Origin: Desulfosarcina ovata subsp. ovata
Lineage (GTDB): Bacteria > Desulfobacterota > Desulfobacteria > Desulfobacterales > Desulfosarcinaceae
DNA length: 64,000 bases
Reading direction: 5' to 3'
NCBI RefSeq assembly: GCF_009689005.1
Contig: NZ_AP021879.1
Location: forward strand, 4,154,001 to 4,218,000
In this document: one piece after another, positions 44,017-62,191 of the stretch
Layout of the letters: each line of letters opens with the position of its first letter
How positions within the stretch are numbered: the stretch's first letter is position 1
Program-made: the position numbers and the translations under genes
The notes under the pieces: model-generated
Databases searched by the model: none
The model's input: only the letters and a program-made list of their open reading frames with translations
Told to the model about the DNA's origin: nothing

Positions 44017-44066
44017 ATTTAAAGGCCTCGGCAACGTCAGCGACAACCCACAGGAGATGCCGAAAA

Positions 44067-44600: not shown

Positions 44601-46804
44601 AACCGCCACCCCTCTTCCCGCCGTCCCGTGCGCCCCTTTACAACGGGTAAAAAAAACTGACAGACGGTGGTGCGGCCAGTCCGCTGCCGGCAATCCGAAG
44701 AAGCGGCGGGCCGCCGTTTTTTCGATCCCTTTTGCATGGCATATGATTTGCTCACGTTTCCTGAAGTATGGACTCGGTTTCAAGAAACAATCGCCATTTT
44801 ACCCATCGATTGACCATTGCCGGTGTTGCCATACTGATTCTGCTGGCGGCCATCGTCATCCACCATCGGTTCACACGGCGTATGATTGCCCTGGTGAGTG
44901 ATCAGTTCAACCAAGAGCAGATTGCCATCGCCCGCAGTGTCCGCAAACTGGTGGAAAATTCACTTAACGCCCTGGAGAAGGAATTGCTCCAGATCGCTGA
45001 GCAGAACGCAACACCGATCGTTGAACCGGAACGCCTGCAGGCCCGCTTGCAGCATGAACTGGAACGAATGACCACTTCCGGTATTGCCCAAATCCGGGTA
45101 TGGGACCGCATGGCCGGCCGGGCATGGGTCTTTTCCCGTGGCGGCTACGTCGAAGAATCATCACCGGTACCCCTTCATGCCAATGCCGACGCCTTGCCCG
45201 AGACCGGAGAGATCCGGATGGCCCGCCCCCCATCGGGCGGCACTCTGCTCGATATGGTGATGATGACGCCGTTGGGCCCGGGGAAGCAGCGGTTTATTTT
45301 CTTCCGTGTCAATCTGGCCTGGCTGCTGGCGCCTCTGGTCAATGACATCCGCTCCGGCATCAGTGGTTATGTGTGGATCATCGACGATCAGGGACGATTT
45401 TTATATCATCCCTACACCGATTTCATCGGTCGTAGTGCGTTCGACGTCCGCAAGGCAACCTATCCCGAACTGAATTTCGTCCAGATCGATCGCATCCAGA
45501 AAGAGGAGATGCTGGCCGGACGGGAAGGTACGGGATCCTATCAATCGGGCTGGCATCGGGGCATTACCGGCCCGGTGGACAAACTGATCGCTTTCTGCCC
45601 CATTTACATATCGACGACCCCCCGCCGGTTCTGGAGCGTCGCCGTGGTTGCGCCCACCCAGGAGATCGCCGGTGCCGTGGGGCAGATTCATCGCTGGGAA
45701 CTGGTGTCGCTGGGCCTGATGCTTCTGGTGGTGGTGGTTGCTGCGGCCGCCTTGATCGGAATCCAACTCCGTTTTTCCAGACGGCTGGAGAAACTGGTCG
45801 CGGCCCGCACCCAGGCACTGAAACGATCGGAGGAGAAGTATCGCCTGCTCATCGAAAGCGCCGAAGATTTTATTTTCACCCTTGACGACAAAGCGCGTCT
45901 CAACGCCGTGAACAGCTATACGGCCCATTTTTTCGGGAGCGATGCCGATGATCTCATTGGCCGTTCGCTGGCCGATCTTCTGTCCGAGGATGTGGCCCGG
46001 CGCAACATCAAGGCCGTCAAACAGGTTTACGCCACCCGGCGCAGTGTCCGGGAAGAGATCGAAATCCGTTCGGTGGATCCGGCGGTGTGGCTTAACGCCA
46101 ATTACATGCCGTTGAAGAATGAGGCGGGAGAAATTACCACGGTGCTTTGTATCGCCCGGGATATTACGGAAAGCAAAACCCTTCAGCACCGCCTGGTGAC
46201 CACCGAAAAGCTGGCCGCGCTGGGAACGCTGGCCGCCGGCGTGGCCCATGAGATCAACAACCCCCTGGGTGTCATTTTGGGATTTTGCGACCTGCTGGTA
46301 CGCAAGCAACCGCCAGAAAGCCAGGCCTATCAGGACCTGAAAATAATCGAGCGCCAGGGGCTGCACTGCAAGGAGATCGTGGACAATCTGCTCAGTTTTG
46401 CCAGGGACCGCAAGATATCCGAAGAGTCAACGGACCTCAACCAATGCCTGGAAGAGATCATCAAGGTCGCCCGGCACAGCATCGAACGGCAGGGCGTTAC
46501 CGTCACCGTCAGCATTGCCAGGGGCATGCCTCCGGTGTGTGGGGACTGTCGCCAGCTTCAGCAGGTTTTTCTCAATTTGATGAATAACGCCGTGGGTGCC
46601 ATGCCCGATGGGGGCGAACTGGCCATTGATGCATTTTTCGAAAAACCATCCCGGCATGCCGCGGTGAAGGTGTCGGACACCGGCTGTGGCATCCCCGAGG
46701 CGGACATGGATCGGATTTACGAGCCTTTTTTCACGACCAAACCCGAGGGCCAGGGAACCGGATTGGGCTTAAGCGTCATTTTGCGGTTGGATTTTCCATT
46801 ATTT

Positions 46805-48694
46805 TCAACACGCGACGTGCGGAGCGCGGCTTCTGGCTGCCTTGATGATGCGTTGATTCATATTTTCCGTTCTTACAACATGGCGATCAGCGGAAGATAA
46901 AGATGAAGTGGAAAGTTGAAGTATTTTATCCAGATTTGACATCTTTTGGGACGGTAACCCTTTTTCTTTTCTCCGCGCTTCTTCTTTATCGAGTTGTGCA
47001 AAAGCAAGAGGAAGACGATCAATGGATCCGCAAACGGCACTGACATAATCGGGTTGGTTCAGATTATACACCAGCGCTGCCTCAGCCGGTAATCGTTCAA
47101 AATCATGTGTGAGGTTTTTCCGCCCACTCCTGCGTCGTTCGCCATGTTTTATGGTGCCGAAAAAATTTTCTATAATTTCGTTTGTACGACTCACAAGTCG
47201 CATTCGAGAAGGGGCGTTCTCCGGTAACGTAATAACGTGGCCCCAAAGGTGTTCGCCATGAACATCGATATGTTTCAAGATGATATCAATGGCATCACGC
47301 ATATCTTGGGCCGGGCCTCTTTTGGGACGACGTTCTTTGAGCGATGCCGTCCAATCGTAAAATCGTTTCCGCATCAAATCAATGTCTGCCACTGTTTCAT
47401 TTTCGGGCAGTTTTTTCGCGGTCCGCAGTTGATCCCGCAATTCATCGAATAGCTCAGCACGGCGTTGAAGACGCTTGATGATGTGACGAAAAGGAACTTC
47501 ACATGCAACTTTGGTCAAAATCCGGCCAAGCCGTTTGAGTGCACCCGTTACTTTTCGATCATCGGATGGGATACGAAGAAACGCATCAATCGCTTTTGAT
47601 CCGATCATGCAGCGGTTAAAAAAATCGAAATAGGGTCGGTCAAATGGAAAATCCAGCCCGGAGGCGTCGGCATGATAGTCGATCACCCATTGGCTTAGCG
47701 CACGGACAACCGCTATCCCATTTTTTCCCGGCGGCAATTGATATGTATGGTCTTCCATCTCTTGCCATGCAATAACCGTTTGCCGAGCATCATCGATCTG
47801 TAAACCAATCTTTCCGCCGAACTCGCGAATCAGGCGCTTAATGTCGGCCTGAACCTTGGTTCTGCGAAAAAGGTCGCGAAGGGCACAATGGTCAGAATTT
47901 AAAAGATCTTTGCCGATATCCGCCAGAAAATGCTGATGGCAGGCCAAAACAGGGATCTCCAATCCCAATTCGGAAACCAAATCGTTCAGCGCCGGTGTGA
48001 CCGCTCGCCCTAAATCTCGCATCCCCGCACAAGGCGGGCCGAATCTTTCAACGGTGTCGCGCAGACATGGCAAAATAAGTTCAGCTTTCTCAGTGGCTAT
48101 CTTCCATGCGCCAAGCACCCATTTTCGCCAACCGGCCATCACAACAAAAAGCGTGCCTCGGCCGTTTTCTCCGCTTGCATCGATGTGCATCGGCCATCCA
48201 CCGTCATTTTCCAATATTTTTCTTATGCGGTCGGCTTTTGCATAATGAAGCCGTAGAAAATATTGTGAAAACCGCATGGCCAAGTCACTGACTTCACCAG
48301 CTGAGATACGAATGCCATAGTCGTCATTGAGCGCTGCCATGATCTCTTCTCGCTGCCGATGTTCAAGCAACCGCTGGCGTCCGACAAAAACCATCAAATC
48401 ATAGCCGGCATTGCAGTTTGGCATAATAGTTTGCGACACGGATAAAGATCTTTGGGTCACCAAGGTGCCGACGGGATGATGGCATCGGCCGGCACAAACA
48501 TACACTGTTTCACATACTTCGAATACTCCATGTCGAAGGGTCCTGCCTTCATGGCGGTATGTTTTCTGAACTTTCATTGGGCCATGACAGATTTCACAGC
48601 GTCCACGCTCCTCTTTGGCCGAAACAACAACATCGGTCAGTCCGAAAGCCTGTTTACAACAACGGTCATTCAAACGACGCGCCTCATCTCTCAA
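46805..48694 (-). CDS. Transposase of the insertion sequence
   Basis: A 629-residue protein. The N-terminal 90 residues contain a zinc-finger pattern (CEICHGPM ... CETVYVCAGRCHHP). The central part has candidate DDE residues: MHIDASGENGRGTLFVVMAG, then MRDLGRAVTPALNDLV, and SRTNEIIENFFGTIKHGERRRSG near residue 530. It moves the element by cut-and-paste or copy mechanisms typical of DDE enzymes. The frame is intact, so the enzyme may be active. The accessory gene upstream ends 14 bases before its start. Confidence 0.8.
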   Translation of the reverse strand: MRDEARRLNDRCCKQAFGLTDVVVSAKEERGRCEICHGPMKVQKTYRHEGRTLRHGVFEVCETVYVCAGRCHHPVGTLVTQRSLSVSQTIMPNCNAGYDLMVFVGRQRLLEHRQREEIMAALNDDYGIRISAGEVSDLAMRFSQYFLRLHYAKADRIRKILENDGGWPMHIDASGENGRGTLFVVMAGWRKWVLGAWKIATEKAELILPCLRDTVERFGPPCAGMRDLGRAVTPALNDLVSELGLEIPVLACHQHFLADIGKDLLNSDHCALRDLFRRTKVQADIKRLIREFGGKIGLQIDDARQTVIAWQEMEDHTYQLPPGKNGIAVVRALSQWVIDYHADASGLDFPFDRPYFDFFNRCMIGSKAIDAFLRIPSDDRKVTGALKRLGRILTKVACEVPFRHIIKRLQRRAELFDELRDQLRTAKKLPENETVADIDLMRKRFYDWTASLKERRPKRGPAQDMRDAIDIILKHIDVHGEHLWGHVITLPENAPSRMRLVSRTNEIIENFFGTIKHGERRRSGRKNLTHDFERLPAEAALVYNLNQPDYVSAVCGSIDRLPLAFAQLDKEEARRKEKGLPSQKMSNLDKILQLSTSSLSSADRHVVRTENMNQRIIKAARSRAPHVAC

Positions 48695-48708
48695 ATCGCT
48701 CAGGACGT

Positions 48709-49401
48709 TTAAGGGAGGCTTGCCGTTTTTTTTTCTGTCGGGATCCCGTGTCGAGTAAAAATCTGTTTGACTTGCTCGACTGTAACCGACATCCCTCGTA
48801 CGTCCAGGCGCTCAGCAACCAACGTTGGAGACACCCTGATCTTTACGGTTTTAAACGCTTCAATCAGCACGGCGATGGTTAATTCTGCTGATGGTGGTTC
48901 AACAACCGGTGCTGTCTTTTGCAAAAGAAAACGGCGCGTATTTAACTGCAGTTGTGCTTTTTCAGGATTTGCATCTGTATATAGAAAGAAACGTTCCAGC
49001 CGACGGCGACCGATCTGATTGTTTTTAACCAGCCCATGCAGTGCATTATGCAACGTGTTGGGAATTCTTATTTTCAACAAATTCAGCATTTCTTTGGGCA
49101 TCATGCCGGCATCTGAAGAATGGACGATTTTGATGATGGTGTTTTTCAGCGTGCCATATTGTGAAAAACCAATCCCCTTATGAAACCACAATCCCCACTC
49201 ATCAAAAATCGGTACATCCTGAAGCGTATAATAACGACCGGCATCCGTAAAACTCGTTAAATATCCCATGCGTTTGAGTCTTCGAAAAACACTCATTCGC
49301 GACGTCGTTTGAAGTAAATGATATAACTGGCCAATATCTGCGATATACTTCTTATTGAAAAAGTTCCAAAGTACTGTCTTGGATTCTTCAGGTGAGAGCA
49401 T
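48709..49401 (-). CDS. Accessory helix-turn-helix protein of the insertion sequence
   Basis: A 230-residue basic protein. The N-terminal half looks like a winged-helix DNA-binding module (IADIGQLYHLLQTTSRMSVFRRLKRMGYLTSF). A second HTH-like unit lies in the middle (MPKEMLNLLKIRIPNTLHNALHGLVKNNQIGRR), and a C-terminal helix pair ends VEQVKQIFTRHGIP. It is inside the element and co-directional with the transposase, so it is most likely a transposition helper or regulator. I know no named family for it. Confidence 0.65.
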   Translation of the reverse strand: MLSPEESKTVLWNFFNKKYIADIGQLYHLLQTTSRMSVFRRLKRMGYLTSFTDAGRYYTLQDVPIFDEWGLWFHKGIGFSQYGTLKNTIIKIVHSSDAGMMPKEMLNLLKIRIPNTLHNALHGLVKNNQIGRRRLERFFLYTDANPEKAQLQLNTRRFLLQKTAPVVEPPSAELTIAVLIEAFKTVKIRVSPTLVAERLDVRGMSVTVEQVKQIFTRHGIPTEKKTASLP

Positions 49402-49766
49402 ATGGCCTCATGATACAATTATTTGTTTGAATGTAAATTATTCAAACAATCGTATCAATTTAGCCCTCCCATGTCAATCCTCGGGTTTAATAATATCAAA
49501 TGGTTACATTTTTTAGTGCCGTCATAATCATCGAACAGCGATACAATTATGAATGAATATAACGATATATTTGCTTACATTTCAGTGGGTTAAAAAACCC
49601 AACTGCATTCTGACCCTGTAGGGATTGGGATTGTTTGTGAGTTATGGGATTATCAGTAGTTTTGGCGGCAGCCTTCAATGCCAAAGCCGGGTTGCCGAAA
49701 AGTCCGGTGAGAGAAGCGGCACCACGTTCATCGTGAAGCTGCCGCAACGGTCATAGGGGGGTGGAT

Positions 49767-51176
49767 ATGAGTGGTTGCATAGTGGTGGTGGACGATGAAC
49801 GGGACATGCTGCTGCTGCTCGATCGCATCATTTCGGAAGAATCCGACTACCGGGTGGAGACGTTCGACGATCCTCAGAAGGCGTTGGAACGGGTACAATT
49901 GGGTGGTGTCGACCTGGTGATTACCGATCTGAAGATGCCGAAAATGGACGGCATCAGCCTTCTGGAAAAAATCCAGTCAGTGGACCCGTCCGTTTCGTTG
50001 GTGGTGATCACCGCCTTCGGCACCATTGAAACGGCGGTGGAGGCGACCCGCAAGGGGGCCTGCGACTTCATCACCAAACCGTTTCGGCGGGAACGGATCC
50101 TGGTGACCATCGAAAACGTGATGAACTTCCAGTCCATCACGCGGGAGAACAACGCCCTGCGGGAGGCGCTGGGCAAATCCAATGGGTTTGCCCAACTGCT
50201 GGGGACCACGCCGGTGATGCGCGGTATTTTCGACCGCATTCGCCAGGTGGCCCCGACCCAGGGCACCGTTTTGATTACCGGCCCCAGCGGTACGGGAAAG
50301 GAGCTGGTCGCCAAGGCGCTGCACACCCACAGCCGCCGGAAGAAAAGCCGCTTCGTCACCCTCAACTGCACCGCCATTCCCGAAAATGTGCTGGAAAGCG
50401 AGCTGTTCGGCCATGTGAAAGGGGCGTTTACCGGTGCCTGGAAGGACAAGCGCGGGCTGGTGGAAGACGCCCACGAGGGCACCCTTTTCCTTGACGAAAT
50501 CGGCGATTTGCCCCCCATCCTGCAGACCAAGCTGCTTCGTTTGCTTCAGGAGGGCGAGTACCGGCCTGTGGGCGGCAACACGACCCGCAAGGCCGACCTG
50601 CGGTTCATCGCGGCCACCAACCGCCTGCTCAAGGAGGAAATTGCCCGCGGGCGTTTCCGCGAAGATCTGTATTACCGCCTCAATGTGATCAATTTCGAGC
50701 TTCCGCCCCTGTCGGAACGGCGTGGGGATATCCCCCTGCTCAGTCATCATTTCCTGAAAAAATACGCCACGGTGAACGGCAAAACGATTACTTCCATTTG
50801 CCCGCTGGCCATGCAACGGCTCATGGCCCTGGATTATCCGGGCAATGTCCGTGAGCTGGAAAACATCATTGAACGGGGGGTGATTTTCTGCCAAACGGAA
50901 ACGCTGGCGACCCAAGACCTGTTCCTCGACAATGAACCCCCCGATGTGCCTGGGAACGATTCCCGGTCATGGCGTCATCTGCCTTTCAAGGAGGCCAAGG
51001 ACCAGATGATCGCCAGCTTTCACCGGCAGTATATCGACGCCCTGTTGCGGGATAACAACGGCAACGTGAGCCGGGCCGCGCAGAAGGCGGGTATCCAGCG
51101 GCAGTACCTGCACCGCCTCATGAAGGAGTCGGGTATTGTGACGGATGATTACAAGGGGCCCAATGAGTTGGAATAG
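49767..51176 (+). CDS. NtrC-type sigma-54 response regulator
   Basis: Receiver domain (residues 1-120) with the acidic pocket VVDDERD and phospho-Asp in [13 protein letters not shown], plus the switch Lys in FITKPF. Then the AAA+ domain with [14 protein letters not shown] and GTLFLDE, and a C-terminal Fis-type helix-turn-helix ([23 protein letters not shown]). A GTG at 49761 is an alternative start. It begins ten bases after the disrupted kinase's stop, so it is the cognate regulator. With the kinase split, its input may now be lost or come from other kinases in the cluster. Confidence 0.93.
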
Positions 51177-51223
51177 AGGCAGGGGGATCAAGAGTGAGAT
51201 GCAGAGCTTTTTTGCCGCGATCC

Positions 51224-51589
51224 TTACGGGATTTCAATCCCAATACTGGTACATGCGTCCCTGAGCCGGATCCGTCCGATTGGCCGATGGTTCCAGAGTA
51301 CCGCAATGGTGTTGCGGTTGTGTTTGATCATGACCTCGATGGCCGTGGTAATCGGATCGGTGAGCATCACCGAGGGGGTGGTGGACAGATCCTTGGTGAA
51401 AGGAAGCAGAATCTGGCGAATGCTGTTGGGTGGGTGGGTATGCATGGCATCTGCCTCACTGGATGACGATGTGGCACCTCGTGCATCGGCTTGCAGTGTT
51501 GTAACAAGGTCGACGGCTTTGAAGCTATAATTAGCAATCCTGATGCCATTTAAAATGGTTGCCGTGACCGGGTGTTGTCCGGGGGGCAT
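51224..51589 (-). CDS. Single CBS-domain protein
   Basis: A minus-strand frame with a C-terminal CBS motif: SVMLTDPITTAIEVMIKHNRNTIAV, then HRPIGRIRLRDACTSI. CBS units usually bind adenine nucleotides as pairs, so this one may dimerise or act with the CBS-containing regulator next door. The start is uncertain: an ATG at 51445 has GAGG nine bases upstream and would give 73 residues. The first ATG at 51589 has no ribosome site. It is convergent with the NtrC-type regulator gene. Confidence 0.55.
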   Translation of the reverse strand: MPPGQHPVTATILNGIRIANYSFKAVDLVTTLQADARGATSSSSEADAMHTHPPNSIRQILLPFTKDLSTTPSVMLTDPITTAIEVMIKHNRNTIAVLWNHRPIGRIRLRDACTSIGIEIP

Positions 51590-51781
51590 TCAGGTGCCGT
51601 ATCCGTTACCCGGGCGACCAAAAACAACCCTCGGGAACGACCGGCCGGCAGGACGTCACCGGTTCCCGGAGACCTTTTGCGAGGCGTTGTGTCGTCGGCA
51701 GGTTCCGCTTTTGCCCGCCGGTGTCCAATGCCAGTAGACAATCGTTTTTAAAAGAGGCGGTTTGCAAAGGAGGCCAAGGCC

Positions 51782-52678
51782 ATGGAAAAGGCTCCGATGA
51801 AGAATCCTCCCCGCCAGCGGCGGATATTGCTGGCGGACGATGAAGCGCGGTTTGTCACCCAGATGGCCCGGCTGCTTGAAGCGCGCAATTTCCAGGTGAT
51901 GACGGCCGGTAACGGGCGCGACGCCCTTGCCCTCATCGAGACCCACCCCTTTGACGCGGTGGTGCTGGATATTCGCATGCCGGTGATGGACGGGATGGCG
52001 GCGCTGGAGAAAATCAAGGCAAAAACACCGTCACCGGCGGTGATCATGCTGACCGGTCACGCATCGTTGGACACGGGAATCGAAGCGCTCCGCCGGGGCG
52101 CCTTCGATTACCTGATGAAACCCTGTGGCATCGAGGACCTGGTGGCCAAATTGGATGTGGCCTGCCGGGTGGAACAAATTCGGCGCCGGCCCATCCTCTG
52201 GCCCCGCTCCCTGGCCGGCGAACTGATTCTGGAAGCGTTCCGGCGCATCATGGATAGCGATCCCCTGCTGGAGGCCTTTTCGATTCTCAATCACCGTTTG
52301 CCCCGGATGGCCGGTGAAACCCTGTTTATCGTCGATCATGGCGATCGTCTTGTCGGCCATTTGAGCAAACAGGAAATTCTTGGCTGTGTCACCGGTGGGG
52401 CCGCACCGCCGGCAACGACATGGGAGCAGTTGTCGGCCAATCCCCAGTGGCTGCCGGACCGCTCGGTCGGCGAGGTGATGAAACGGGATACGGTCGCCGT
52501 CGATCCTCATGTGCCGCTGAAAACAGTGGCCCAGATCATGATCGACAATACCTATCAGACCTTGCCGGTGATTGACAACGATCGGCGGGTGCTCGGCGTG
52601 ATCCGGTTCAAGGATGTTCTGGTGTACCTGGAAAATGCCGATGCCCAGGGCGATGAACCCATTGAGGAAAGCGATTAA
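51782..52678 (+). CDS. Response regulator with receiver and paired CBS domains
   Basis: A 298-residue protein. The receiver (about 12-130) has LLADDEARF, the phospho-Asp in VVLDIRMPVMDG and the switch Lys in YLMKPCG. The second half carries two CBS motifs, a diverged one (AFSILNHRLPRMAGETLFIVDHGDRLVGHLSKQEIL) and a clear one (VGEVMKRDTVAVDPHVPLKTVAQIMIDNTYQTLPVIDND). CBS output suggests that phosphorylation is linked to adenylate sensing. AAAGGAGGCC precedes the ATG. Its stop is adjacent to the kinase start, so the two are coupled. Confidence 0.9.
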   Translation: MEKAPMKNPPRQRRILLADDEARFVTQMARLLEARNFQVMTAGNGRDALALIETHPFDAVVLDIRMPVMDGMAALEKIKAKTPSPAVIMLTGHASLDTGIEALRRGAFDYLMKPCGIEDLVAKLDVACRVEQIRRRPILWPRSLAGELILEAFRRIMDSDPLLEAFSILNHRLPRMAGETLFIVDHGDRLVGHLSKQEILGCVTGGAAPPATTWEQLSANPQWLPDRSVGEVMKRDTVAVDPHVPLKTVAQIMIDNTYQTLPVIDNDRRVLGVIRFKDVLVYLENADAQGDEPIEESD

Positions 52679-54343
52679 ATGAAAAACGACGATCCGCATT
52701 TTCGGACCTTGTGGTATCGGGTCCTGGCCGCACTCCTGGGGGCGGCATTCATTCCGCTGGTGACCATTGGCGGTATTTTCTCCATTTATGCGGTCTCCAT
52801 CTTCAAAACCAGAACCCTTGAAATGCTGGTTCGGGATGCCACCCTGAGACAGTGGCATCTTGACCGGTTCCTGCAAGACCGCATTCTGGAACTTGGATGG
52901 GTGGCCCGCGTCCCTTCCGCCATTCTCACCGACCAGGAGCGTTTCGATGCCTACGCCCGGGACCTGATCCGCGAGCGGCCCTGGATGAACGATCTGGCCA
53001 TTTTCGACCTGGATGGCAACCAGCTGGCCTATACGGGCCATTATGCCCGGCAGACCGGCAACTACAGCGGGCGCGAGTGGTTCCGCAAGGCGCGGGACGC
53101 AGGAAGCTGCATCAGTGACATGGAACTGGGGAATCGGCAGCTTCCGCACATCAGTATTGCCGTCCGCGGCCAGGGACGTCTCCAGGACCTGATCATCCGG
53201 GCCAGCGTCGATTCAAAGCAGATCCACCGGCAAATGAATCCGGAGCAAAAGGCCTTTTTCTCAGCGAATGTTTTTTTGGTCAATCAGAATGGCCGGTACC
53301 AGATTCCTCCGCCGTCCGGTGGACAGATCATGGGGCCTTCGGACATCGGTGCCCAGGATCGGTTTGACGGGATCCGGACGCGCACGGACGGCGACACGAT
53401 CCTCATGACCACCTGGCTTCAGGCGGCACCGTGGATACTGGCGGTGCACTATGAAAAGGACGCCGTGTATGCGCCGGCCGTCGAAATGCGGCTTCTGTCG
53501 CTTTGGGCGCTCTTGATCGGCGGCTTTTTGATTGTCTGCTTCGTTCTGCTCACGGCCGACGCCCTGGTCAGCCGACTGGAGGCCACCCGACAGCGGATCG
53601 GGCATCTGAACCGGCAGCTTCGCCGGAGCAGCTTCATGACCTCGGCCATGGAACTGGGAACCGGACTGCTTCGGGAAATCATCGATCGACTGTCCAGCAT
53701 CACGGTGGCGGCCCAGTGGCTGGAAACCCATCTGGCGGACAACCTGACACCGCCGGTGAACGAGGACATCCGGCAGATCAGCGAATCGGCAACCGTGGGC
53801 CGGGAGCGTCTCAACCAGTTTCTCTCCATTTTTGACCAGCAGACGTCCATGATCACCGCCGTGAATCTTGAAAGCGTTGTCAAAACACTGCTCACCTGGT
53901 TACAACAGGAACTGACCCTTCGATGTATCCGTGTGGAATGGGAGGTGGAAAACGATCTTCCCGAAATCCGGTCCGACGAGGTAAAATTGCGGCATGCCAT
54001 TCAGAACCTGCTGATCAATGCGATCCATGCAGTGAATCAACATGGCGTGATTCAAATTACCTTGACCCGTGAGAACAAGGGCGTGGCCATGACCATTGCC
54101 GACAACGGTCCCGGAATTCCGGAGGCGGAGCGGGAGAAGATCTTCGAGCCGCTTTATACCACCAAGTCCGACGGCACCGGTCTGGGATTGCCTGTTGCCC
54201 GGGATGTCATCCAGGCCCTGGGCGGTTCGCTAATTTTGCTGCAAACCACATCTGCCGGCACCGCCTTCAGGCTTTTCCTGCCCTGTGATCTGGGCGCGTC
54301 ACCGGTGGTGGCCGGCGCAACGGATGCGAACGCTGAAACATGA
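52679..54343 (+). CDS. Histidine-kinase-like protein lacking the phosphoacceptor histidine
   Basis: A 554-residue membrane protein with two transmembrane helices (about 20-42 and 278-300) and a Cache-type periplasmic domain between them (PWMNDLAIFDLDGNQLAYTG). The ATPase part is intact: NLLINAIHA, ADNGPGIPE and GTGLGLPVARD. The position of the H-box reads MELGTGLLREIIDRLSSI, where related kinases have VAHEINNPL. Histidine is replaced by arginine (codon CGG). It cannot autophosphorylate at the usual site, so it may act as an ATP-dependent sensor, a phosphatase or a partner of the neighbouring kinases. Confidence 0.85.
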   Translation: MKNDDPHFRTLWYRVLAALLGAAFIPLVTIGGIFSIYAVSIFKTRTLEMLVRDATLRQWHLDRFLQDRILELGWVARVPSAILTDQERFDAYARDLIRERPWMNDLAIFDLDGNQLAYTGHYARQTGNYSGREWFRKARDAGSCISDMELGNRQLPHISIAVRGQGRLQDLIIRASVDSKQIHRQMNPEQKAFFSANVFLVNQNGRYQIPPPSGGQIMGPSDIGAQDRFDGIRTRTDGDTILMTTWLQAAPWILAVHYEKDAVYAPAVEMRLLSLWALLIGGFLIVCFVLLTADALVSRLEATRQRIGHLNRQLRRSSFMTSAMELGTGLLREIIDRLSSITVAAQWLETHLADNLTPPVNEDIRQISESATVGRERLNQFLSIFDQQTSMITAVNLESVVKTLLTWLQQELTLRCIRVEWEVENDLPEIRSDEVKLRHAIQNLLINAIHAVNQHGVIQITLTRENKGVAMTIADNGPGIPEAEREKIFEPLYTTKSDGTGLGLPVARDVIQALGGSLILLQTTSAGTAFRLFLPCDLGASPVVAGATDANAET

Positions 54344-56604
54344 TCAAACGCGAGCATATCCAACTGGCCCTCGATGCCATTCATCACGTTGACCGGGAAT
54401 CGGGATACGGGCTCCAGGCCCTTTTCGACGACCAGCGCATCCGTATCGCCCCCGATTCCGGCGGCCAGACGGAAGACTCGGAGGGGAAAGGGTTTCTCTA
54501 CTATTTCGAGGGGGAACGCGTTGACGTTCCCAAAACCGCTTTTGTGGCCGACGGTATCGCCACCCTCGAACAGTCCCTGGTTTTCAAGTGGGGTGAACTT
54601 CGCGAAAAGCAGCTTCGGGTGGGCACCTGGATTTCCGGAAATATTCACCAGCTGGCCGGTGATATTCGGCGGGCCGGTGCCGAGCTGCAGGTGGATTATG
54701 AACTGCAACGCCTGAAAAACCGGCCGGCCAACCTGGAGGCATCCGTGGCCTTGCCCGCGGCCCAATCGCCGGGCCCCCATTTTTCCGGCCATCTGGTGGC
54801 CGGGATGCCGGCCCAATTCGTTCCTTTGCCCCTCACCCGGCAGATGCTTCTGCAAGTGGCCGGACAGCGCTTCGAATTCTTCAGCGTCCGTTTCCTGCTC
54901 GACAGCTGGGCCGACGGCTCCTTTCCATTTATTTATGCGTGTATCGCTGGTGGGCAGCTGCTGGGCCTGGTCAAGCTCCAACGCCATCGGCACGCGATCA
55001 ACGACCGTTTTGAAATCAAGTATATCGCCCGGCGGGCGCCGCAGTACGACGACACCGAAACCTCGGCCAGGGGCGTCGGCACATTCATGCTGGCCGGCGT
55101 CTGGATGCTGTGGCACACGTTTGCCCCCGACGTGCGCCATATCTTCCTGGACGGTGAGGTGGGGGCCCGAAAATTCTATCTGGACGCCGGGTTCACGGAG
55201 CAGCGCCTGTGCCGCTATGTCCTGGAAACCCCTGCCGGCTACCTGTTGGCGACGATTGCCGACATGGCCGATGATCCACGGGCGCCCGCCGGAACGGTCA
55301 AGGACCGGCTGGAGTCGCTCATCCGTACGTCCATCAAGGAACTCGGCCGGGCTCGCCGGGGGCGGCGGAACCCCGAGCCGCTCCTGGCGTTTATCAAACG
55401 CTGTCTGGTCTGCCGGCACCAGCCCTATCCGGCAACCACCGCCCTGGCCCTGCTGCTCAAAAACCAGACGCGCATCGCCGAAGCCACGGCCCTGATCGAT
55501 ATGGCCACCCGCACGGGCAAGGTGCGGATCAGCGGCGAAACGCCGAATTCGCAGACCACCATCCTGGTGGTGGACGACCCGCGATTTGGCCTGCACCTGA
55601 AAAATGTGTTTCACCTGGAAAGTCCCCGGCGCTTCGACGCCTTTTGCCGCGCCCTGGCCCACCCGAGCATTGCCGGCCGGTGGCATTCCATGATGGTCGA
55701 GCCGGCCGACCGTGAACAGTTGCTGTGGGTACACGCGGCCGACTACATTGCCCGGCTGGAAAAAACCGCGGGCCGCCAGCTGGTCACCCTGGACATGGAT
55801 ACCCAGACCACGGAGCACTCCTGGGAGGTGGCCTGCCTGGCAGTCGGCGGCGTGTTTCGGTTGATGGACGGCATCTGCAGCGGCCGGGCCAGCCGGGGTG
55901 TGGCCGCCGTGCGTCCCCCCGGGCACCACGCCGAGCCGGATCAGGCCATGGGCTTCTGCCTGCTCAACAACGCGGCCCTGGCCGCCCGCTACCTGCAGAA
56001 GATGCACGGCCTCAAACGCGTCATGATCATCGATCTGGACGCCCATCATGGAAACGGCACCCAAACCGCTTTTTATGACGACGCTTCGGTACTGTACCTC
56101 TCCACCCACGGTTATCCGGCGTATCCGGGTACCGGCAGCCTCGGTGAGATCGGCCAGGGGCCTGGAAAAGGCTTTACCGTAAACATTCCTATGGACAAAG
56201 GGGCCGGCGACAGGGCCTTTGAAGCTGTTTTCCGGCGGATCGTCGATCCGCTGACCCACGCATTCGGGCCTGAATTCATCGTGGTGTCACTGGGCTTCGA
56301 TCTCTACCTGCACGATCGGCTGGGGGGGATGAAGGTAACCCCGGAAGGCTATGGGATGCTTACCCGCATGCTGCTCCGCATGGCCACACGGGTGTGCGGC
56401 GGACGAATCGCCTTTATTCTCGAAGGCGGCTACAGTGTCAAGGGTATCGAGGTGTGCGGGTTGCGTTTTCTCCAAGAACTCTGCAACACCGATCCGGATG
56501 CCGGGACAGAAGAAGAGCGGCGAAACCCGAGGTCAGCCTTCGTTCCCGCCGTCATCGCCAAGGTGATCAGCGTCCAGAAGCCGTTCTGGCCGCAACTTTT
56601 CTGA
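54340..56604 (+). CDS. GNAT acetyltransferase / HDAC-type deacetylase fusion
   Basis: A 754-residue protein that overlaps the preceding kinase by four bases. Residues about 1-145 are of unknown type. Residues about 150-310 form a GNAT-like fold, with the RFEIKYIARRAPQYDD strand, SARGVGTFML in the acetyl-CoA loop position and ARKFYLDAGF. Residues about 400-740 form a class II HDAC/acetylpolyamine amidohydrolase domain with PPGHHAEPDQAMGFCLLNN, DLDAHHGNGTQ (zinc Asp and His) and SLGFDLY (third zinc ligand). One chain may therefore add and remove acetyl groups, on a protein lysine or a polyamine. Confidence 0.85.
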   Translation: MIKREHIQLALDAIHHVDRESGYGLQALFDDQRIRIAPDSGGQTEDSEGKGFLYYFEGERVDVPKTAFVADGIATLEQSLVFKWGELREKQLRVGTWISGNIHQLAGDIRRAGAELQVDYELQRLKNRPANLEASVALPAAQSPGPHFSGHLVAGMPAQFVPLPLTRQMLLQVAGQRFEFFSVRFLLDSWADGSFPFIYACIAGGQLLGLVKLQRHRHAINDRFEIKYIARRAPQYDDTETSARGVGTFMLAGVWMLWHTFAPDVRHIFLDGEVGARKFYLDAGFTEQRLCRYVLETPAGYLLATIADMADDPRAPAGTVKDRLESLIRTSIKELGRARRGRRNPEPLLAFIKRCLVCRHQPYPATTALALLLKNQTRIAEATALIDMATRTGKVRISGETPNSQTTILVVDDPRFGLHLKNVFHLESPRRFDAFCRALAHPSIAGRWHSMMVEPADREQLLWVHAADYIARLEKTAGRQLVTLDMDTQTTEHSWEVACLAVGGVFRLMDGICSGRASRGVAAVRPPGHHAEPDQAMGFCLLNNAALAARYLQKMHGLKRVMIIDLDAHHGNGTQTAFYDDASVLYLSTHGYPAYPGTGSLGEIGQGPGKGFTVNIPMDKGAGDRAFEAVFRRIVDPLTHAFGPEFIVVSLGFDLYLHDRLGGMKVTPEGYGMLTRMLLRMATRVCGGRIAFILEGGYSVKGIEVCGLRFLQELCNTDPDAGTEEERRNPRSAFVPAVIAKVISVQKPFWPQLF

Positions 56605-56746
56605 CCGTAGCGATACCCACGGTGGCAAGAGACACAGTTGTCACCACGCGGTGGACACCCCGTCGCCAAGTGCCCTGAAAGAGCCCTTGACCATTAATAA
56701 TTAACTGATATTTCTGGATAAAAAAAAGTGGCGGCAATTATTTTTT

Positions 56747-56762
56747 TGGCATGCTCCTTGAT
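56747..56762 (+). promoter_or_regulatory. Possible sigma-54 promoter of the kinase-receiver pair
   Basis: TGGCAT-N5-TTGAT, with GG at the -24 position but GA where GC is expected at -12. It lies 70 bases before the kinase start, after an AT-rich stretch. The weak -12 makes this tentative. Confidence 0.4.
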
Positions 56763-56831
56763 TTGGAAATACGACAACAACGTCGCGTGGCCGGGCAAGG
56801 GCCGCGACCCCCCATTGCGGAAGGAGGCGAT

Positions 56832-58625
56832 ATGCAAGATTTACCATCGGATCATTTGCAAAATGGAGATACCCCCAGCCCCGATGAAGATCGCCAGGCT
56901 CGATACAGACGGCTTTTTTATCGGTTTGTGCTACTGACATTGGTCTGTTCCGTCGTTCCCCTGCTGCTGGTGGGATGGGGCATGAATATCAAATACAACC
57001 GGTTGGGCGAAGAGCAGGTAATGACGGAATTTCGTAAAGAGGTGCAGCACCACCGCAAGGTCATCGAGCTGTTTCTTGAGGAGCAAAGCGACAAACTGGC
57101 GCTGATGGCCGCCACCCACAGCCGTCAGAATTTTTCCCGACCCGGGTTCCTGCGATCGACCTTCGACCTGTTCAATAAGGAGCACTGGACCCTGACCGAC
57201 CTCGGGGTGATCGACGACCAGGGCGACCATCTGGCCTATGTGGGCCCCTATGACCTGCTGGACAAGAATTACAAGGATGCCCACTGGTTCAAGATGGTCA
57301 TGGAAAAAGGTCTGTACATCAGCGACATGTTCATGGGGTTTCGCCGGGAACCGCATTTCATCATCGCCGTTCGGGGAAACGATACCGACGGGCCCTGGAC
57401 CCTGAGGGCCACCGTGGACACGGAAGCCTTCCGGTCGTTGGTGGAGAATGTCATGATCGGCCGGACCGGGGAAGTCTTTCTCGTCAACCGGGAGGGCATT
57501 TACCAGACCACACCCCGGTACAGCGGCCGGATTATGGAGCCTGCCGCCATTGACGTGGGCGAGGTCCATCCGGGGATTCGGGTGCGGCAGGAGGCGGCCG
57601 ATGCCGGTTTCAACGGCGAGCGGTCGGTGCGGCAGATCGTGAGCACGGCCTGGCTGGAAACCCCGCAATGGATGCTGGTGGTCCGCCAGGACAAGGACGA
57701 AGCCTTCGGGGCTGAAAACCAGGCCAACTTCTCGGTATTGATCTTCCTGCACGTCACCGCGGCCACGATCCTGGTGGTGACGATTCTGGTCACCCGCTAC
57801 ATGCTCAACCTCGTCAAGCGCAAGGATGCCGAGGCCGATGCGCTGAACAGCCAGCTCATGCAGACGAGCAAAATGGCCTCCATCGGCGAGTTGTCCGCAG
57901 GGGTGGCCCATGAGATCAACAACCCCCTGGCGATCATCTCCACGGAGCGGGAGATTGTTCTGGACGCCTATCGGCGGGTCGGTGACATGGATGCGGAATT
58001 CGGCGTCCAACTGGACGACTCTCTGAATCAGATCGACGTCCAGATCAAGCGCTGCAAGCGCATTACCCACAACCTGCTGCGCTTTTCCCGCCGCACGCAG
58101 TCGGTTATCGACACGGTGGACATCAACGCCTTTATCGGTGAGGTGGTCGACCTGATGGCACGGGAGGCCAAGTCTTCCGGCATCAGCTTTCTCGAGGAGT
58201 TGTCACCCGAGGTCCCGCCGATTCTGTCGGACCTGTCCCAGTTGCAGCAGGTTTTCCTCAACCTCATCACCAACGCCATCGACGCCCATGAGAACAAACA
58301 ATACGGTTCCATCTCCATCCGCACCAATTACCTGGAACCCGATGGCATCGTGGAGATCGTGGTTTCGGATACCGGCAGCGGCATTCCGGAAGAAAAGCTG
58401 GCCAAAATTTTCGACCCCTTCTTCACCACCAAACCCATGGGGCGGGGAACGGGTCTTGGCCTTTCGATCTGTTACGGCATCATCCAGCGACTGGGCGGTG
58501 AGATCAGCGTGAAAAGCGTTGTCAACCAGGGAACCGATTTCACCATCCGGCTGCCATTGCGGTCGCCGGATGCCCAGCCCGATTCTGTCCATGCATATGA
58601 CCAACAAGTGGAAAAGGCCGCATAA
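56832..58625 (+). CDS. Cache-domain sensor histidine kinase
   Basis: A 597-residue kinase. A cytoplasmic tail of about 28 residues precedes transmembrane helix 1, followed by a periplasmic Cache domain ([31 protein letters not shown]), helix 2 near residue 310, the H-box [15 protein letters not shown], the N-box [19 protein letters not shown] and [11 protein letters not shown]. It senses an extracytoplasmic ligand and phosphorylates the receiver gene product that follows. AAGGAGGCGAT decides the start at 56832. Its Cache domain resembles that of the arginine-variant kinase at 52679, so the two probably arose by duplication. Confidence 0.92.
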
Positions 58626-58692
58626 ACGTATCATCCATCGGGCAGCGTCAGCGCTTCGGGCGGGCGGCGCCCCTATCGAACGAAAGGAGATC

Positions 58693-59148
58693 ATGATGAT
58701 CGGATCCAAAATACTGCTGGTCGATGACGAAGTCATTTTTGCCAAAAACATGAGCCGTCTGCTGGACGCCCGAGGGTACCAGAGCACGGCGGTCAATAGT
58801 GGCGCAGAGGCCATCCGGGAGCTTGAAAACGGGAATTTCGATGTGGTTGTGCTGGACCTGAAGATGCCCGGCATGGACGGTCTGACGACCCTGAAGGAGA
58901 TCAAGAAGCTGGGCCTGTTTACCCAGACCCTGATGCTGACGGGCCATGGTTCCATCGACTCGGCGCTGGAGGCGGTCAAGCTGGGGGCCTACGATTATCT
59001 CACCAAACCCTGCGAAATCGATGAACTGACCGCCAAAATCGAGGGGGCCTGGGACAAAAAGGATGATCTTGAGAAAAAGGATATCCAGGACAAGATTCAG
59101 AAGGTGGTCGAATCCCCCCGGGATGCCATGCGGTTGTTTTCCAAATAG
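58693..59148 (+). CDS. Stand-alone receiver-domain response regulator
   Basis: A 151-residue protein: a receiver with ILLVDDEVIF, phospho-Asp in VVLDLKMPGMDG, LMLTGHGS and the switch Lys in YLTKPCE. After it a basic/acidic helix (KIEGAWDKKDDLEKKDIQDKIQKVVE) forms a possible coiled coil, with no DNA-binding domain. It is probably a phosphorelay shuttle or a protein-interaction regulator of the adjacent kinase. AAAGGAGATC precedes the first ATG of two. Confidence 0.9.
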   Translation: MMIGSKILLVDDEVIFAKNMSRLLDARGYQSTAVNSGAEAIRELENGNFDVVVLDLKMPGMDGLTTLKEIKKLGLFTQTLMLTGHGSIDSALEAVKLGAYDYLTKPCEIDELTAKIEGAWDKKDDLEKKDIQDKIQKVVESPRDAMRLFSK

Positions 59149-59225
59149 AGGATTCGCGGCGGCGCCCGACATGGTGTGTCCTTGTTGCCGGCCGGAAGGT
59201 CGCTGCTTCCACAGATGAGAAAAGT

Positions 59226-59642
59226 ATGCCCCCTGAGTCGAGTTGGATAAAGCGATGGACCTTACGGGTCCAACGGTTGAAAACAGAAATCCACGCCCTC
59301 TCCCTGGCCTGCCGGGACCCCCGGGTTCCCCGGCAGGCCAAGCTCGTGGCGATCCTGGTGGTGGCTTACGCCCTGAGCCCCATCGATCTGATTCCCGATT
59401 TCGTTCCCGTCCTGGGTTATCTGGACGATCTGATCATCCTGCCCCTGGGCATCCTGCTCTGCCTGAAGATGATCCCCGCCGAAATCCTGCAAGAGTGTCG
59501 TGAGCAGGCCGGCATGGCGCCGCCCGCGGAAAAGTCCGGCGCCCTTTTTGGTGCCCTGATCGTGGTCACCCTGTGGCTGCTGATCGGTGCCGGTGTTGCC
59601 GTCTGGGCCAAGACGATCATGGCCCGGGCCTCTTTACCGTAA
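59226..59642 (+). CDS. DUF1232 (YkvA-type) membrane protein
   Basis: A 138-residue protein with the DUF1232 core: RDPRVPRQAKLVAILVVAYALSPIDLIPDFVPVLGYLDDLIILPLG. A second hydrophobic segment near the C-terminus (LFGALIVVTLWLLIGAGVAVW) anchors it in the membrane. The family has no defined biochemical role. It is the last gene of the signalling cluster and is followed by a terminator. Confidence 0.9.
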   Translation: MPPESSWIKRWTLRVQRLKTEIHALSLACRDPRVPRQAKLVAILVVAYALSPIDLIPDFVPVLGYLDDLIILPLGILLCLKMIPAEILQECREQAGMAPPAEKSGALFGALIVVTLWLLIGAGVAVWAKTIMARASLP

Positions 59643-59677
59643 GGCCCGCCTTTGTTGACCCCCGCCCCATTTCCCCT

Positions 59678-59707
59678 AGGGCAGGCGACGCCTGCCCTTT
59701 TCTTTTG
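59678..59707 (+). terminator. Terminator of the signalling cluster
   Basis: A 9-bp stem AGGGCAGGC/GCCTGCCCT with a GAC loop, followed by TTTCTTTT. Confidence 0.85.
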
Positions 59708-59819
59708 CATGTCAATCCACACTGGACCCTGTTCAAATCGGAGATGAACAATGTCTCCCGAAACCACAAGACCGTGATTTGCTTTCGATTTAGTTAGAAT
59801 ATTATAATAGCAAGCAGGC

Positions 59820-59899
59820 GTCTTACGATTTACGGCGACCCATTGGCGTGTAATAAAGTGAAGGCGCAAGCAGAACAGATGAGTCTGCTTGCGCCTTTT
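59820..59899 (+). promoter_or_regulatory. Structured leader with terminator (copy 3 of the three-copy element)
   Basis: GTCTTACG (59820-59827) is followed by a 29-nt segment able to pair TTAC/GTAA, then AGTGAAGGCG (59857-59866). A perfect 13-bp terminator stem AAGGCGCAAGCAG/CTGCTTGCGCCTT follows, then TT. TATAAT at 59803-59808 gives a start of transcription just before the element. GCAAGCAG at about 59810 could pair with the 3' arm and act as an antiterminator. The first gene behind it begins at 60018. Confidence 0.68.
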
Positions 59900-60017
59900 G
59901 GATTTTCGTGCCTTGACCAATATTTTATCCATGAGAAGCAACTATAATGCGATGCAAAGCAATGCTAATCCATGGGGGACCATCACATCTCGAACAACAA
60001 AATATAGGAGGGGAGCA

Positions 60018-60326
60018 ATGGGTATCCAAAAACAATTTTTAAAGCGCAAACCGATATGTAAGGTTACCTTCAAAATTGCAAAAGCAGTTGCCAATGCAAG
60101 TCAAAGCGCTCACGTCGTGGGGGAGTTCAACGGCTGGTCGATTTCCGCAACCCCCATGAAAAAACTGAAGAACGGGGCTTTCAAAACAACCGTCGATCTT
60201 AAGATCGGCCGGTCTTATCAGTTCCGGTATCTTTTAGACAAATATAATTGGGAAAATGATCCCGAAGCCGACGGGCTTTTGCCCACGCCGTTTGGCGACA
60301 GCCGGAATTCGGTAATTCGTCTATAA
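60018..60326 (+). CDS. Glycogen-binding (CBM48/AMPK-beta-like) domain protein
   Basis: A 102-residue protein that consists almost only of an E-set/CBM48 domain: VTFKIAKAVANASQSAHVVGEFNGWSISATPMKKLKNGAFKTTVDL, then YQFRYLLDKYNWENDPEAD. The GEFNGW and YQFRYLLD motifs are those of AMPK-beta and isoamylase N-terminal domains, which bind glycogen or act as small regulatory modules. GGAGGGGAGC precedes the ATG. Control by the leader at 59820 is inferred. No glycogen enzymes are nearby. Confidence 0.85.
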   Translation: MGIQKQFLKRKPICKVTFKIAKAVANASQSAHVVGEFNGWSISATPMKKLKNGAFKTTVDLKIGRSYQFRYLLDKYNWENDPEADGLLPTPFGDSRNSVIRL

Positions 60327-60361
60327 CAATCTTGCTCTGGGGATTATAGCGAGGTGAAACC

Positions 60362-60703
60362 ATGCACAGAAAAAGAACTGAACAAAAAAACGATCCGCGT
60401 ATCATCAAACGGAGCCCCACTGAGGTTGCCGTCATCTGCAGTCCCTTTACCAGCAGCGGCATGAACAGCGCTACCGATGGCGTAATGTATAACTTCTCCA
60501 CCCACGGCAGCTATCTTGAAGCACGAAAAAAGTTCAATACCGGCACCATTCTTATTGTGAGAACCGTCGGTCACAAAAAGGTTTCGTTATCCAAGGAAGA
60601 TGCCAACCCGCGACTTATTGGTCTGGCGGAAATCAAATGGCTGAAACGAATTGACGACAAGGAAAAGCATCGATATGGGATCGGGCTGCAATACATACTA
60701 TGA
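60362..60703 (+). CDS. PilZ-like domain protein
   Basis: A 113-residue protein with a PilZ-like arrangement: a basic start (RKRTEQKNDPRIIKRSP), then MYNFSTHGSYLEARKKFNTGTILIVRTV in the position of the D/NxSxxG motif, and a C-terminal strand HRYGIGLQYIL. The canonical RxxxR is present only in weakened form (RKRTEQKNDPR), so c-di-GMP binding is uncertain. It is 35 bases after the CBM48 gene and shares its transcript. A bidirectional terminator follows. Confidence 0.6.
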   Translation: MHRKRTEQKNDPRIIKRSPTEVAVICSPFTSSGMNSATDGVMYNFSTHGSYLEARKKFNTGTILIVRTVGHKKVSLSKEDANPRLIGLAEIKWLKRIDDKEKHRYGIGLQYIL

Positions 60704-60705
60704 GA

Positions 60706-60752
60706 AACGGCGGCTCAGGAAAGTTGCGTTTTTCCTGAAGCCGTTGTTTTTT
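60706..60752. terminator. Bidirectional terminator
   Basis: The stem AACGGC-GG-CTCAGGAAA pairs with TTTCCTGA-AGCCGTT, followed by GTTTTTT. It lies between the convergent PilZ-like and DUF169 genes. Confidence 0.8.
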
Positions 60753-60766
60753 ACACAAAGGATTGA

Positions 60767-61555
60767 TCAACTCCAATCCGTTGATATCTTTAACCGTTTC
60801 CAGGCCCTGGTCCCCAACACGCTTTCCGGCCATACCGCCACCATCTTTTTAAACAGGCTAAAGGGAACAACATAGGTCAGGCCCCCTGTTTTAAGGTACT
60901 TGAGGCCGTTTATATCAAAGCAGCCGACCACTGCCTTTTGTTCTCCCATGCAAAGCAATTTTCTGGGCCATGCGATCAAGTTGCAGCAGGCCATGCCAAA
61001 GGGGGTGCATACCGCTTGGGGGTCACGGGTCACAAAGGTCGTCAACCCATTCAGACCGATCAGGGCCCCGGGGCCTGGGAAAAAGGCCACCAGTTCGGGC
61101 TGCTCATCTTTTTTAAACAACCCCAGGGGCTGGGTCACCAGGAAACGGCCCGTTGCCCGGGGCGGCTCAAACCCATCATAAAAGGCTTTTCCGGTTTCCG
61201 GACCGTCCACATAACGCTCCCCTTCAAAACGCCCGGGAATGCCTGTTGAGAGGAGATCCGGCTCAAAGTCCTCGTAATGGGGTTTGAATCCCATGAAAAA
61301 GGCCCCGCCCAGGCAGCCATAACGGGTATGGTCAAAATAGGCCGCCTTATTTTCACGACAGGCCCGCCGTACTTTTCCCAACACGCAGGAATTCCAGTGC
61401 ATCTCTCCGTCCGGGGCCTCTGCCAGTCGGCCCAGGGGAACCTGGGCTCTGGGGGCATATCCCGATGAGGGCTGCCGGTCTGTGTAAAAGATGCCTAGTG
61501 GCTCTTGGGTAAGGCCCAACGCTTCCATTAACGGTTCATGTTTTAACGGTTCCAT
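60767..61555 (-). CDS. DUF169 family protein
   Basis: A 262-residue soluble protein with the DUF169 pattern. Near the start LGLTQEPLGIFYTD (the usual EPVGI/VKF region). In the middle CVLGKVRRACRENKAAYFDHTRYGCLGGAFFMGF, with three cysteines. Then FFPGPGALIGLNGLTTFV and a C-terminal ACCNLIAWPRKLLCMGEQKAVVGCFD. These conserved cysteines hint at a cofactor or metal. The family is frequent in methanogens and sulfate reducers and has no proven role. It is co-directional with, and downstream of, the EamA-type gene. Confidence 0.85.
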   Translation of the reverse strand: MEPLKHEPLMEALGLTQEPLGIFYTDRQPSSGYAPRAQVPLGRLAEAPDGEMHWNSCVLGKVRRACRENKAAYFDHTRYGCLGGAFFMGFKPHYEDFEPDLLSTGIPGRFEGERYVDGPETGKAFYDGFEPPRATGRFLVTQPLGLFKKDEQPELVAFFPGPGALIGLNGLTTFVTRDPQAVCTPFGMACCNLIAWPRKLLCMGEQKAVVGCFDINGLKYLKTGGLTYVVPFSLFKKMVAVWPESVLGTRAWKRLKISTDWS

Positions 61556-61608
61556 TTCCTTCTCCTTTGGCCAAAGGGCTCGCGAAAAGTTATTTCTTAC
61601 CTACAGAC

Positions 61609-62022
61609 TCAGCTGGTAAAAAAATAGATGGCTGCAAAGGCGCTGATAATGCCCAGCCCCTCCCTCAGGGTAATGGGTTCTTTTAGCACCAGCCATCCCA
61701 AAGCAAGGGTAATCACTGGTGACAATGACGTGAACATGGCGACCACAGACACCTTTCCGGACTTGACGGCAAAAAGAAATCCAAGGGCACCGGTAAGGCC
61801 CAGGATCCCGGTAAAAATGGCCAGGCAAATGCCTTTGGGATTGATATCGGGCCTGAAATCAAGCAGGGAGAGAACCACGCTGCCCACGATAATGGAACCC
61901 ACAACTTCATAGACCATGGCGCTCATGGGGTGGATGTACCGGGTGGTGATCTTGGGGATGAAGCTCCATACGCCCCAGCATACCAGGGTCAGGGAGGCGG
62001 GCAAAATCCATTGGGATAGCAT
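61609..62022 (-). CDS. Half-size EamA/DMT-type transporter
   Basis: A 137-residue membrane protein with five hydrophobic helices, i.e. one EamA unit rather than two: ILPASLTLVCWGVWSFIPKI, MVYEVVGSIIVGSVVLSLL, ILGLTGALGFLFAV, VVAMFTSLSPVITLALGWLVLKEPI and GLGIISAFAAIYFF. Short DMT proteins act as dual-topology dimers. Substrate is unknown. A ribosome site AAAGGAG is upstream of the ATG. It precedes the DUF169 gene on the minus strand. Confidence 0.85.
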   Translation of the reverse strand: MLSQWILPASLTLVCWGVWSFIPKITTRYIHPMSAMVYEVVGSIIVGSVVLSLLDFRPDINPKGICLAIFTGILGLTGALGFLFAVKSGKVSVVAMFTSLSPVITLALGWLVLKEPITLREGLGIISAFAAIYFFTS

Positions 62023-62191
62023 TGGGCAAATCTCCTTTTTTCTATTTTCAGGTTAAGTTTGGAAGACTTGCCTTCCTAAGTAACAAGCCAACGTTCCGAT
62101 TCCGTTCCCCAAAGCGTGACACGGGCGTTTCCAATTAAAAATTGTCAAGCCCCGGGGGATAAGATAAGTTTCCGCCCAGGAGAACCAGCCC

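Follow-up and report, generated by a model that had tools for sequence, protein, structure and literature searches.

A 64,000-nucleotide stretch of the Desulfosarcina ovata subsp. ovata genome (contig NZ_AP021879.1, positions 4,154,001 to 4,218,000; hereafter the window, whose own numbering is used below) carries a gene predicted to encode a single protein that joins a GNAT-type acetyltransferase domain to a histone deacetylase (HDAC)-type domain, set among genes for sensor kinases and response regulators. The open reading frame (ORF) occupies 54340-56604 on the forward strand and begins with ATG, giving a protein of 754 amino acids (aa) that is supported by the ORF itself, a Pfam match, homologues, and predicted structure. 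The opposite strand is also open over 54154-56259 (701 aa); the forward frame is taken as the real gene because the homologues support it. The start of the gene overlaps the end of the upstream gene HK1 (52679-54343, forward strand) in a shared ATGA. Along the forward strand the fusion gene encodes, in turn, an N-terminal domain (aa 1-140; 54340-54759), the GNAT domain (aa 148-295; 54781-55224), a helical region seen in the model that leads from GNAT to HDAC (aa 301-391; 55240-55512), and a class II HDAC-type deacetylase domain (aa 425-707; 55612-56460).

Domains of the fusion protein

The C-terminal domain matches PF00850 over residues 425-707 (E = 1.1e-90), the sole Pfam match of the whole fusion at E ≤ 1. 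The Asp-His-Asp zinc site, the His dyad, and the Tyr of the HDAC superfamily are all present, and the catalytic residues (H529, H530, D567, H569, D654, and Y698) are invariant in 16 of 16 fused rows of the alignment and in 14 of 14 rows of a fused-plus-split set. This bears out the complete zinc deacetylase site described in an earlier reading of the window made from its letters and ORFs (the sequence-only reading). When the domain was compared with proteins of solved structure HDAC6 ranked at the top, followed by HDAC15 and bacterial HdaH, and the best 60 of 137 matches are all of class II or of the HdaH/ApaH types. The gatekeeper position, L661, is Leu in the same 16 and 14 rows and aligns with the Leu of HDAC6 CD2. 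The gatekeeper of HDAC10 has been described as Glu, and the bacterial polyamine enzymes of the same paper carry PIS at that position. The Leu therefore favors peptides over HDAC10-type polyamine substrates, a comparison that speaks to HDAC10-type polyamine deacetylases alone, and the acetylpolyamine turnover once offered as an option for this protein is disfavored, for the HDAC10 type, by this residue.

Scanned with Pfam and NCBIfam, the window protein gave no GNAT match worth the name. Among 14 aligned relatives, eight reach Acetyltransf_7 (best E = 0.0022) and six Acetyltransf_10 (best E = 0.00043), in both cases weakly, and three further relatives gave no GNAT match at E = 0.01. Structure prediction of residues 1-320 had been suggested as a check on this domain; an AlphaFold2 model of residues 1-407, built from 26 alignment rows, reached a pLDDT of 87.8 and a pTM of 0.86 and gives a GNAT fold, with the strands and helices of residues 148-295 in the order of GNAT topology. 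In a VIA-align re-examination of the Foldseek list the 50 rows listed are GNATs (Z 11.3-12.9), aligned mainly over residues 144-325; by Foldseek itself the best match, and the only one below an E-value of 0.001, is NatC (E = 4.2e-4). The PAT enzyme of S. lividans shares the fold over model residues 143-297 (PDB 4nxy: Z 12.2, rmsd 3.0, 143 aligned residues; 4u5y: Z 12.1), and AcuA is not among the 50 fold rows listed, an absence that excludes nothing. The PAT entries lack an HDAC domain, and since many other GNATs score equally, no special kinship is indicated. By the fold of the predicted model the domain belongs to the GNAT superfamily. The GxG of its acetyl-CoA loop (G245-V-G247) and Y280 with G284-F285 are kept in 26 of 26 rows of homologues, and E225, on beta-4 in what we take to be the usual place of the general base, in 25 of 26. 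As far as it was tested, neither finding that would have told against the sequence-only reading turned up: a GNAT fold is predicted, and homologues with the fusion keep these GNAT residues. Its central claim, that one chain carries both a GNAT domain and an HDAC, holds on the Pfam match, the predicted fold, and these residues together.

The N-terminal domain is alpha/beta in the model, and its residues M1, A10, L25, I34, L80, G85, and E121 are invariant in 27 rows. It had been called a region of unrecognized type and remains without a sequence match, its profile having found among solved structures four matches, all of them designed coiled-coil peptides at E ≥ 0.2.

A recurring cluster of signaling genes

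The fusion gene belongs to a cluster that recurs in many genera and comprises an NtrB-NtrC pair, a TSUP/TauE permease, a protein joining a receiver domain to a CBS pair (RR-CBS), HK1, the GNAT-HDAC protein, a second kinase (HK2), and a receiver. Some genomes lack single members, and GNAT and HDAC are encoded either as a fusion or as neighboring genes of the same cluster. In the window all of these genes lie on the forward strand. The TauE/SafE (TSUP) permease gene (42915-43961), its family taken from Pfam matches of orthologues, precedes that of a 177-aa hydrophobic protein (44067-44600), a membrane protein by eye and a recurrent neighbor. The NtrC-type sigma-54 response regulator (49761-51176) was assigned from Pfam and neighborhoods, and RR-CBS (51782-52678), with its receiver (Asp63) and CBS pair, from Pfam and alignment; the CBS pair matches 39 solved sequences, MJ1225 being the best (1.1e-16) and AcuB being included (9qs7, 4e-6). 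HK1 is a kinase homologue with a weak dCache match and an HATPase domain, in which Arg replaces the phospho-acceptor His. HK2 (56751-58625) has dCache just below the Pfam cut-off, HisKA, and HATPase, and keeps the His box. Beyond it lie genes for a single-domain response regulator (58696-59148; its frame starts at 58519 in the ORF list, and orthologues start at Met60 of that frame) and for a DUF1232 protein (59226-59642), a neighbor in 10 of 27 neighborhoods.

The cluster was followed at 26 named loci, of which 24 come from records titled as metagenome-assembled genomes and two from Desulfosarcina alkanivorans PL12 and D. widdelii PP31, and in another set of 20 stretches, three of them apparently duplicates of the named loci. 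RR-CBS lies upstream at 22 of the 26 loci, two of the four misses falling at contig ends, and an HK1-type frame is found at 24 (L078 is cut by the contig end and L082 fragmented), at a distance from the GNAT gene of -4 nt at six of the 24 and 15-259 nt at the rest. The further stretches hold HK1 in 19 cases, HK2 in 16 (once on the opposite strand), TauE in 14, and RR-CBS in 10. The pairing with Cache kinases that the sequence-only reading proposed to look for is recurrent in relatives; in the window itself the dCache matches of HK1 (24.6 bits) and HK2 (43.9 bits) are below the Pfam cut-off of 45.

The phospho-acceptor His is absent from HK1 in 23 of 23 copies and, with the added loci, in 38 of 39, while HK2 keeps it in 30 of 30, counted where a near-full frame is present. 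The first of these counts leaves aside four loci: L061, which has no HK1, L071 and L078, where HK1 meets a contig edge, and L082, where it is in fragments. The count of 39 excludes L152, L156, and L162, whose contigs equal in length those of L081, L071, and L074, as well as L158 (HK1 cut). The ATP-binding boxes of HK1 are mostly kept (N443 in 23/23; N447, D475, G477, and G479 in 22/23), and both receivers retain their Asp (23/23 and 18/18). HK1 is a natural case of a sensor-kinase homologue retained without a phospho-acceptor. Of the coupling to a kinase gene that had been proposed, the overlap with a Cache-kinase homologue stands, and the word kinase has to be qualified by the missing His.

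A TauE/SafE orthologue is present in 20 of 27 neighborhoods, the window copy at 42915 lying just outside the scanned stretch. Of 389 genomes in a sample of the order, 38 have both a strong TauE match (E < 1e-100) and the GNAT module, 9 the GNAT module alone, 2 TauE alone, and 340 neither (Fisher p = 1.3e-41, kinship ignored); with all TauE matches at E ≤ 0.001 the counts are 39 with both, 8 with GNAT only, and 8 with TauE only. Passages of PMC5840216 give the TSUP proteins of sulfate reducers no settled substrate.

The full fusion occurs in four other genomes of the genus besides the window's own, and five further relatives that were searched have long fused frames. The N-terminal/GNAT part was found in 47 of the 389 genomes and, judged by open-frame length, is fused to HDAC in 36 carriers, split from it in seven, and left unclassified, as too fragmentary, in four (G483, G533, G600, and G656). 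Among the 47, G050 was counted as split, having a whole N-terminal gene without HDAC on one contig and an HDAC beside a broken copy on another, and G463 as fused on a partial match. A single-sequence search of the phylum matched 4 of 297 genomes, the window's own included, two of them at marginal E-values. In a tree of 25 rows, which left out L082 (no HDAC beside) and L083 (cut by the contig end), nine split rows make up one side of a branch (95/94). On the aligned sequences this is a single change between the fused and the split state, and the tree, being unrooted, fits fission and fusion alike. In viral contigs neither the N-terminal half nor the whole protein has a relative. On plasmids 166 records gave a match; in none of them is 80% of the query covered, and in the 10 rows listed the alignment starts at residue 324 or beyond.

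A candidate signal-controlled acetylation system

A gene for AcsA that passes TIGR02188 at about 1000 bits and has the motif PKTRSGK lies near 4 of the 26 named loci (L064, L080, L065, and L083). At L064 and L080 it is 3' of the split GNAT and HDAC genes (TIGR02188, 1001.7 and 996 bits; cut-off 725), at L065 beyond HK2 and the receiver, and at L083 upstream on the opposite strand. All four adjoin relatives of one MFS transporter, the L065 copy of which passes SfMCT. The window's genome has two Acs genes above the cut-off in its 7.63 Mb, a rate that predicts about 0.1 over the 467 kb that the 26 loci make up together. Elsewhere in the window's genome (G000:C1:2767398-2772627) acs, HDAC, and acs-like genes stand in a row, likely a separate Acs deacetylation locus.

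In Bacillus, as described in passages of PMC13121692 and PMC13039410, AcuA and AcuC respectively add and remove acetylation on AcsA, and AcuC is inhibited, with AMP or Ap4A, by AcuB, a CBS-ACT protein that contacts it via the ACT domain. The AcuABC-AcsA system of B. subtilis resembles the present one in that a GNAT, a CBS-domain protein, and an HDAC-type deacetylase are encoded together and acsA is near, here at the four relatives just listed. The two differ in that GNAT and HDAC are fused in most genomes here, the HDAC is of class II whereas AcuC is described as a class I HDAC, the CBS pair is joined to a receiver and RR-CBS has no Pfam ACT match, and the cluster adds sensor kinases, an NtrBC pair, and the TSUP permease. 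A GNAT profile search gave three matches and no AcuA chain, the presence of AcuA in the database copy being unchecked. The parts correspond in kind to those of AcuABC, and the system may work in the same way. Common descent is not claimed, given the different HDAC class, a CBS partner joined to a receiver, and no AcuA among the profile matches; the system is not counted as a member of AcuABC. HDAC6 and HdaH share with the fusion the deacetylase domain and complete active site, with the gatekeeper Leu as in HDAC6 CD2, but HDAC6 has two HDAC domains where the fusion has one behind an N-terminal GNAT module. Among the open-access papers that the literature searches listed, no title or abstract opening describes a GNAT-HDAC fusion or a receiver-CBS protein with a deacetylase, and the main text of PMC11532494 does not contain 'fused', 'domain architecture' or 'Desulf'. 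The window's genome itself encodes a second such protein of 750 aa (L006:964-3216, reverse strand), alike in having acetyltransferase and deacetylase in one chain and different in that the HDAC lies between two GNATs. Twelve of 30 genomes of the family, the window's own among them, have a full-length orthologue of this GNAT-HDAC-GNAT protein, and others have fragments; acetyltransferase-deacetylase fusions are therefore not unique.

We favor, at a probability of roughly 0.55, a reading in which the fusion writes and erases lysine acetylation under the control of signals, with acyl-CoA synthetases as its possible substrates. It builds on the domains, catalytic residues, cluster recurrence, and loss of the HK1 His as read from sequences and predicted models; what we infer are the two activities, the substrate, the ligands of the CBS pair and of the sensor, and the direction of control. 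The evidence is strong for the parts and moderate for the function, and points to a recurring signal-linked acetylation module. The GNAT domain would acetylate lysine from acetyl-CoA and the HDAC domain would take the acetyl group off, the balance being set by the surrounding two-component system. HK2 would sense a small ligand and phosphorylate the receivers, HK1, lacking a phospho-acceptor His, may serve as an allosteric partner, and RR-CBS, where present, could relay phosphorylation and adenine-nucleotide status, acting on the enzyme as AcuB acts on AcuC. The likeliest substrates would be AMP-forming acetyl/acyl-CoA synthetases, and the system would tune the activation of short organic acids, possibly moved by the TSUP permease or, in some relatives, by a monocarboxylate transporter. 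Family and context make reversible protein acetylation, which the sequence-only reading proposed as output or control, the likeliest activity; as to its targets, the nearby AcsA of some relatives favors metabolic enzymes over signaling proteins. It is plausible, if still tentative, that phosphorylation is relayed to acetylation directly: a two-component system with a His-less kinase homologue would drive the fusion, an external ligand would set the acetylation of metabolic enzymes, and the receiver-CBS adaptor would integrate energy charge. Internal metabolites (acetyl-CoA, AMP, Ap4A) are described as the signals to which the Bacillus Acu switch answers. If sensor kinases control both writer and eraser here, outside signals would be linked directly to protein acetylation, and the recurring cluster, which includes the named strains PL12 and PP31, provides a defined set of partners.

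Several observations weigh against this reading, beginning with the differences from AcuABC in HDAC class, CBS partner, and profile matches. Three of the four AcsA-bearing loci fall in one clade and so represent few events, and no Acs gene lies in window positions 44001-64000 or in the 20 further stretches. The acs, HDAC, acs-like row elsewhere in the genome, with a deacetylase of its own, makes Acs less convincing as the sole substrate. The partners are not constant: RR-CBS is absent, with sequence at hand, from L074 and L082 and from 7 of the 20 further stretches (L147, L155, and L160-L164); at L061 there is no HK1 and RR-CBS abuts the fusion; a same-strand HK2 lies downstream at 16 of 26 loci, the 10 misses being in part, and not all, at contig ends; and in 8 of 39 HK1 copies, each shorter than 370 aa, most of the Cache region is missing. 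A model of the full-length fusion (pLDDT 83.4) has a pTM of 0.55, and the mutual placement of the domains is therefore not fixed by it. Finally, the acetyl-CoA loop motif of GNATs is Q/R-x-x-G-x-G/A, and its leading residue is S in the window protein, P or V in 16 of 26 rows, and R in one.

The poor conservation of the leading Q/R, together with the absence of a Pfam GNAT match for the window protein, would suit a GNAT domain that is catalytically silent and regulates the HDAC as an acetyl-CoA sensor, leaving the protein a deacetylase only. We consider this unlikely, as 25-26 of 26 rows keep GxG, E225, and Y280 and split relatives retain the GNAT as a gene of its own. Acetylpolyamine turnover, with the GNAT acetylating and the HDAC deacetylating polyamines, is highly improbable. 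Polyamine enzymes do occur in both superfamilies, the weak Foldseek matches include a spermidine acetyltransferase (5cnp), and the HDAC domain has HDAC10 (168 bits) and an acetylpolyamine aminohydrolase (134 bits) among its relatives of solved structure; yet chains of HDAC6, HDAC15, and HdaH outscore both, the gatekeeper is Leu and not the Glu of HDAC10, and no polyamine gene was recognized among the annotated neighbors, which are part of all neighbors.

More serious, though still doubtful, is the possibility that the fusion acetylates and deacetylates proteins of its own cluster, with transport or transcription gated by the state of lysines in the TSUP permease, in the NtrC regulator, or in the receivers. 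The permease tracks the GNAT module closely across the 389 genomes, and it is found in 20 of 27 neighborhoods against 4 of 26 loci with Acs nearby. Co-occurrence, however, indicates a shared pathway and not a substrate, the genomes are related and their counts are not independent events, and the Acs neighbors offer a substrate with precedent.

The interrupted NtrB-type gene and minor frames

In this strain the NtrB-type kinase gene is broken, by homology about 43 codons before its end, by an insertion of about 2.84 kb at 46778-49621. Its first 670 codons, again by homology, lie at 44768-46777 and a tail remnant at 49622-49747, both on the forward strand. Orthologues of the kinase have dCache, PAS, HisKA, and HATPase domains, and the sensor may be non-functional here. 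The insertion carries ORFs of 629 and 230 aa with no Pfam match at E = 0.1, and no inverted repeats were recognized on inspection of its ends; eight more near-full-length copies (98-100%) are present in the genome. Between the NtrC and RR-CBS genes, a short reverse-strand ORF (51224-51589) has a weak match to a single CBS domain (E = 0.0071). At 59889-60323, 3' of the cluster, a small protein with a match to CBM48/AMPK-type carbohydrate-binding domains is encoded.

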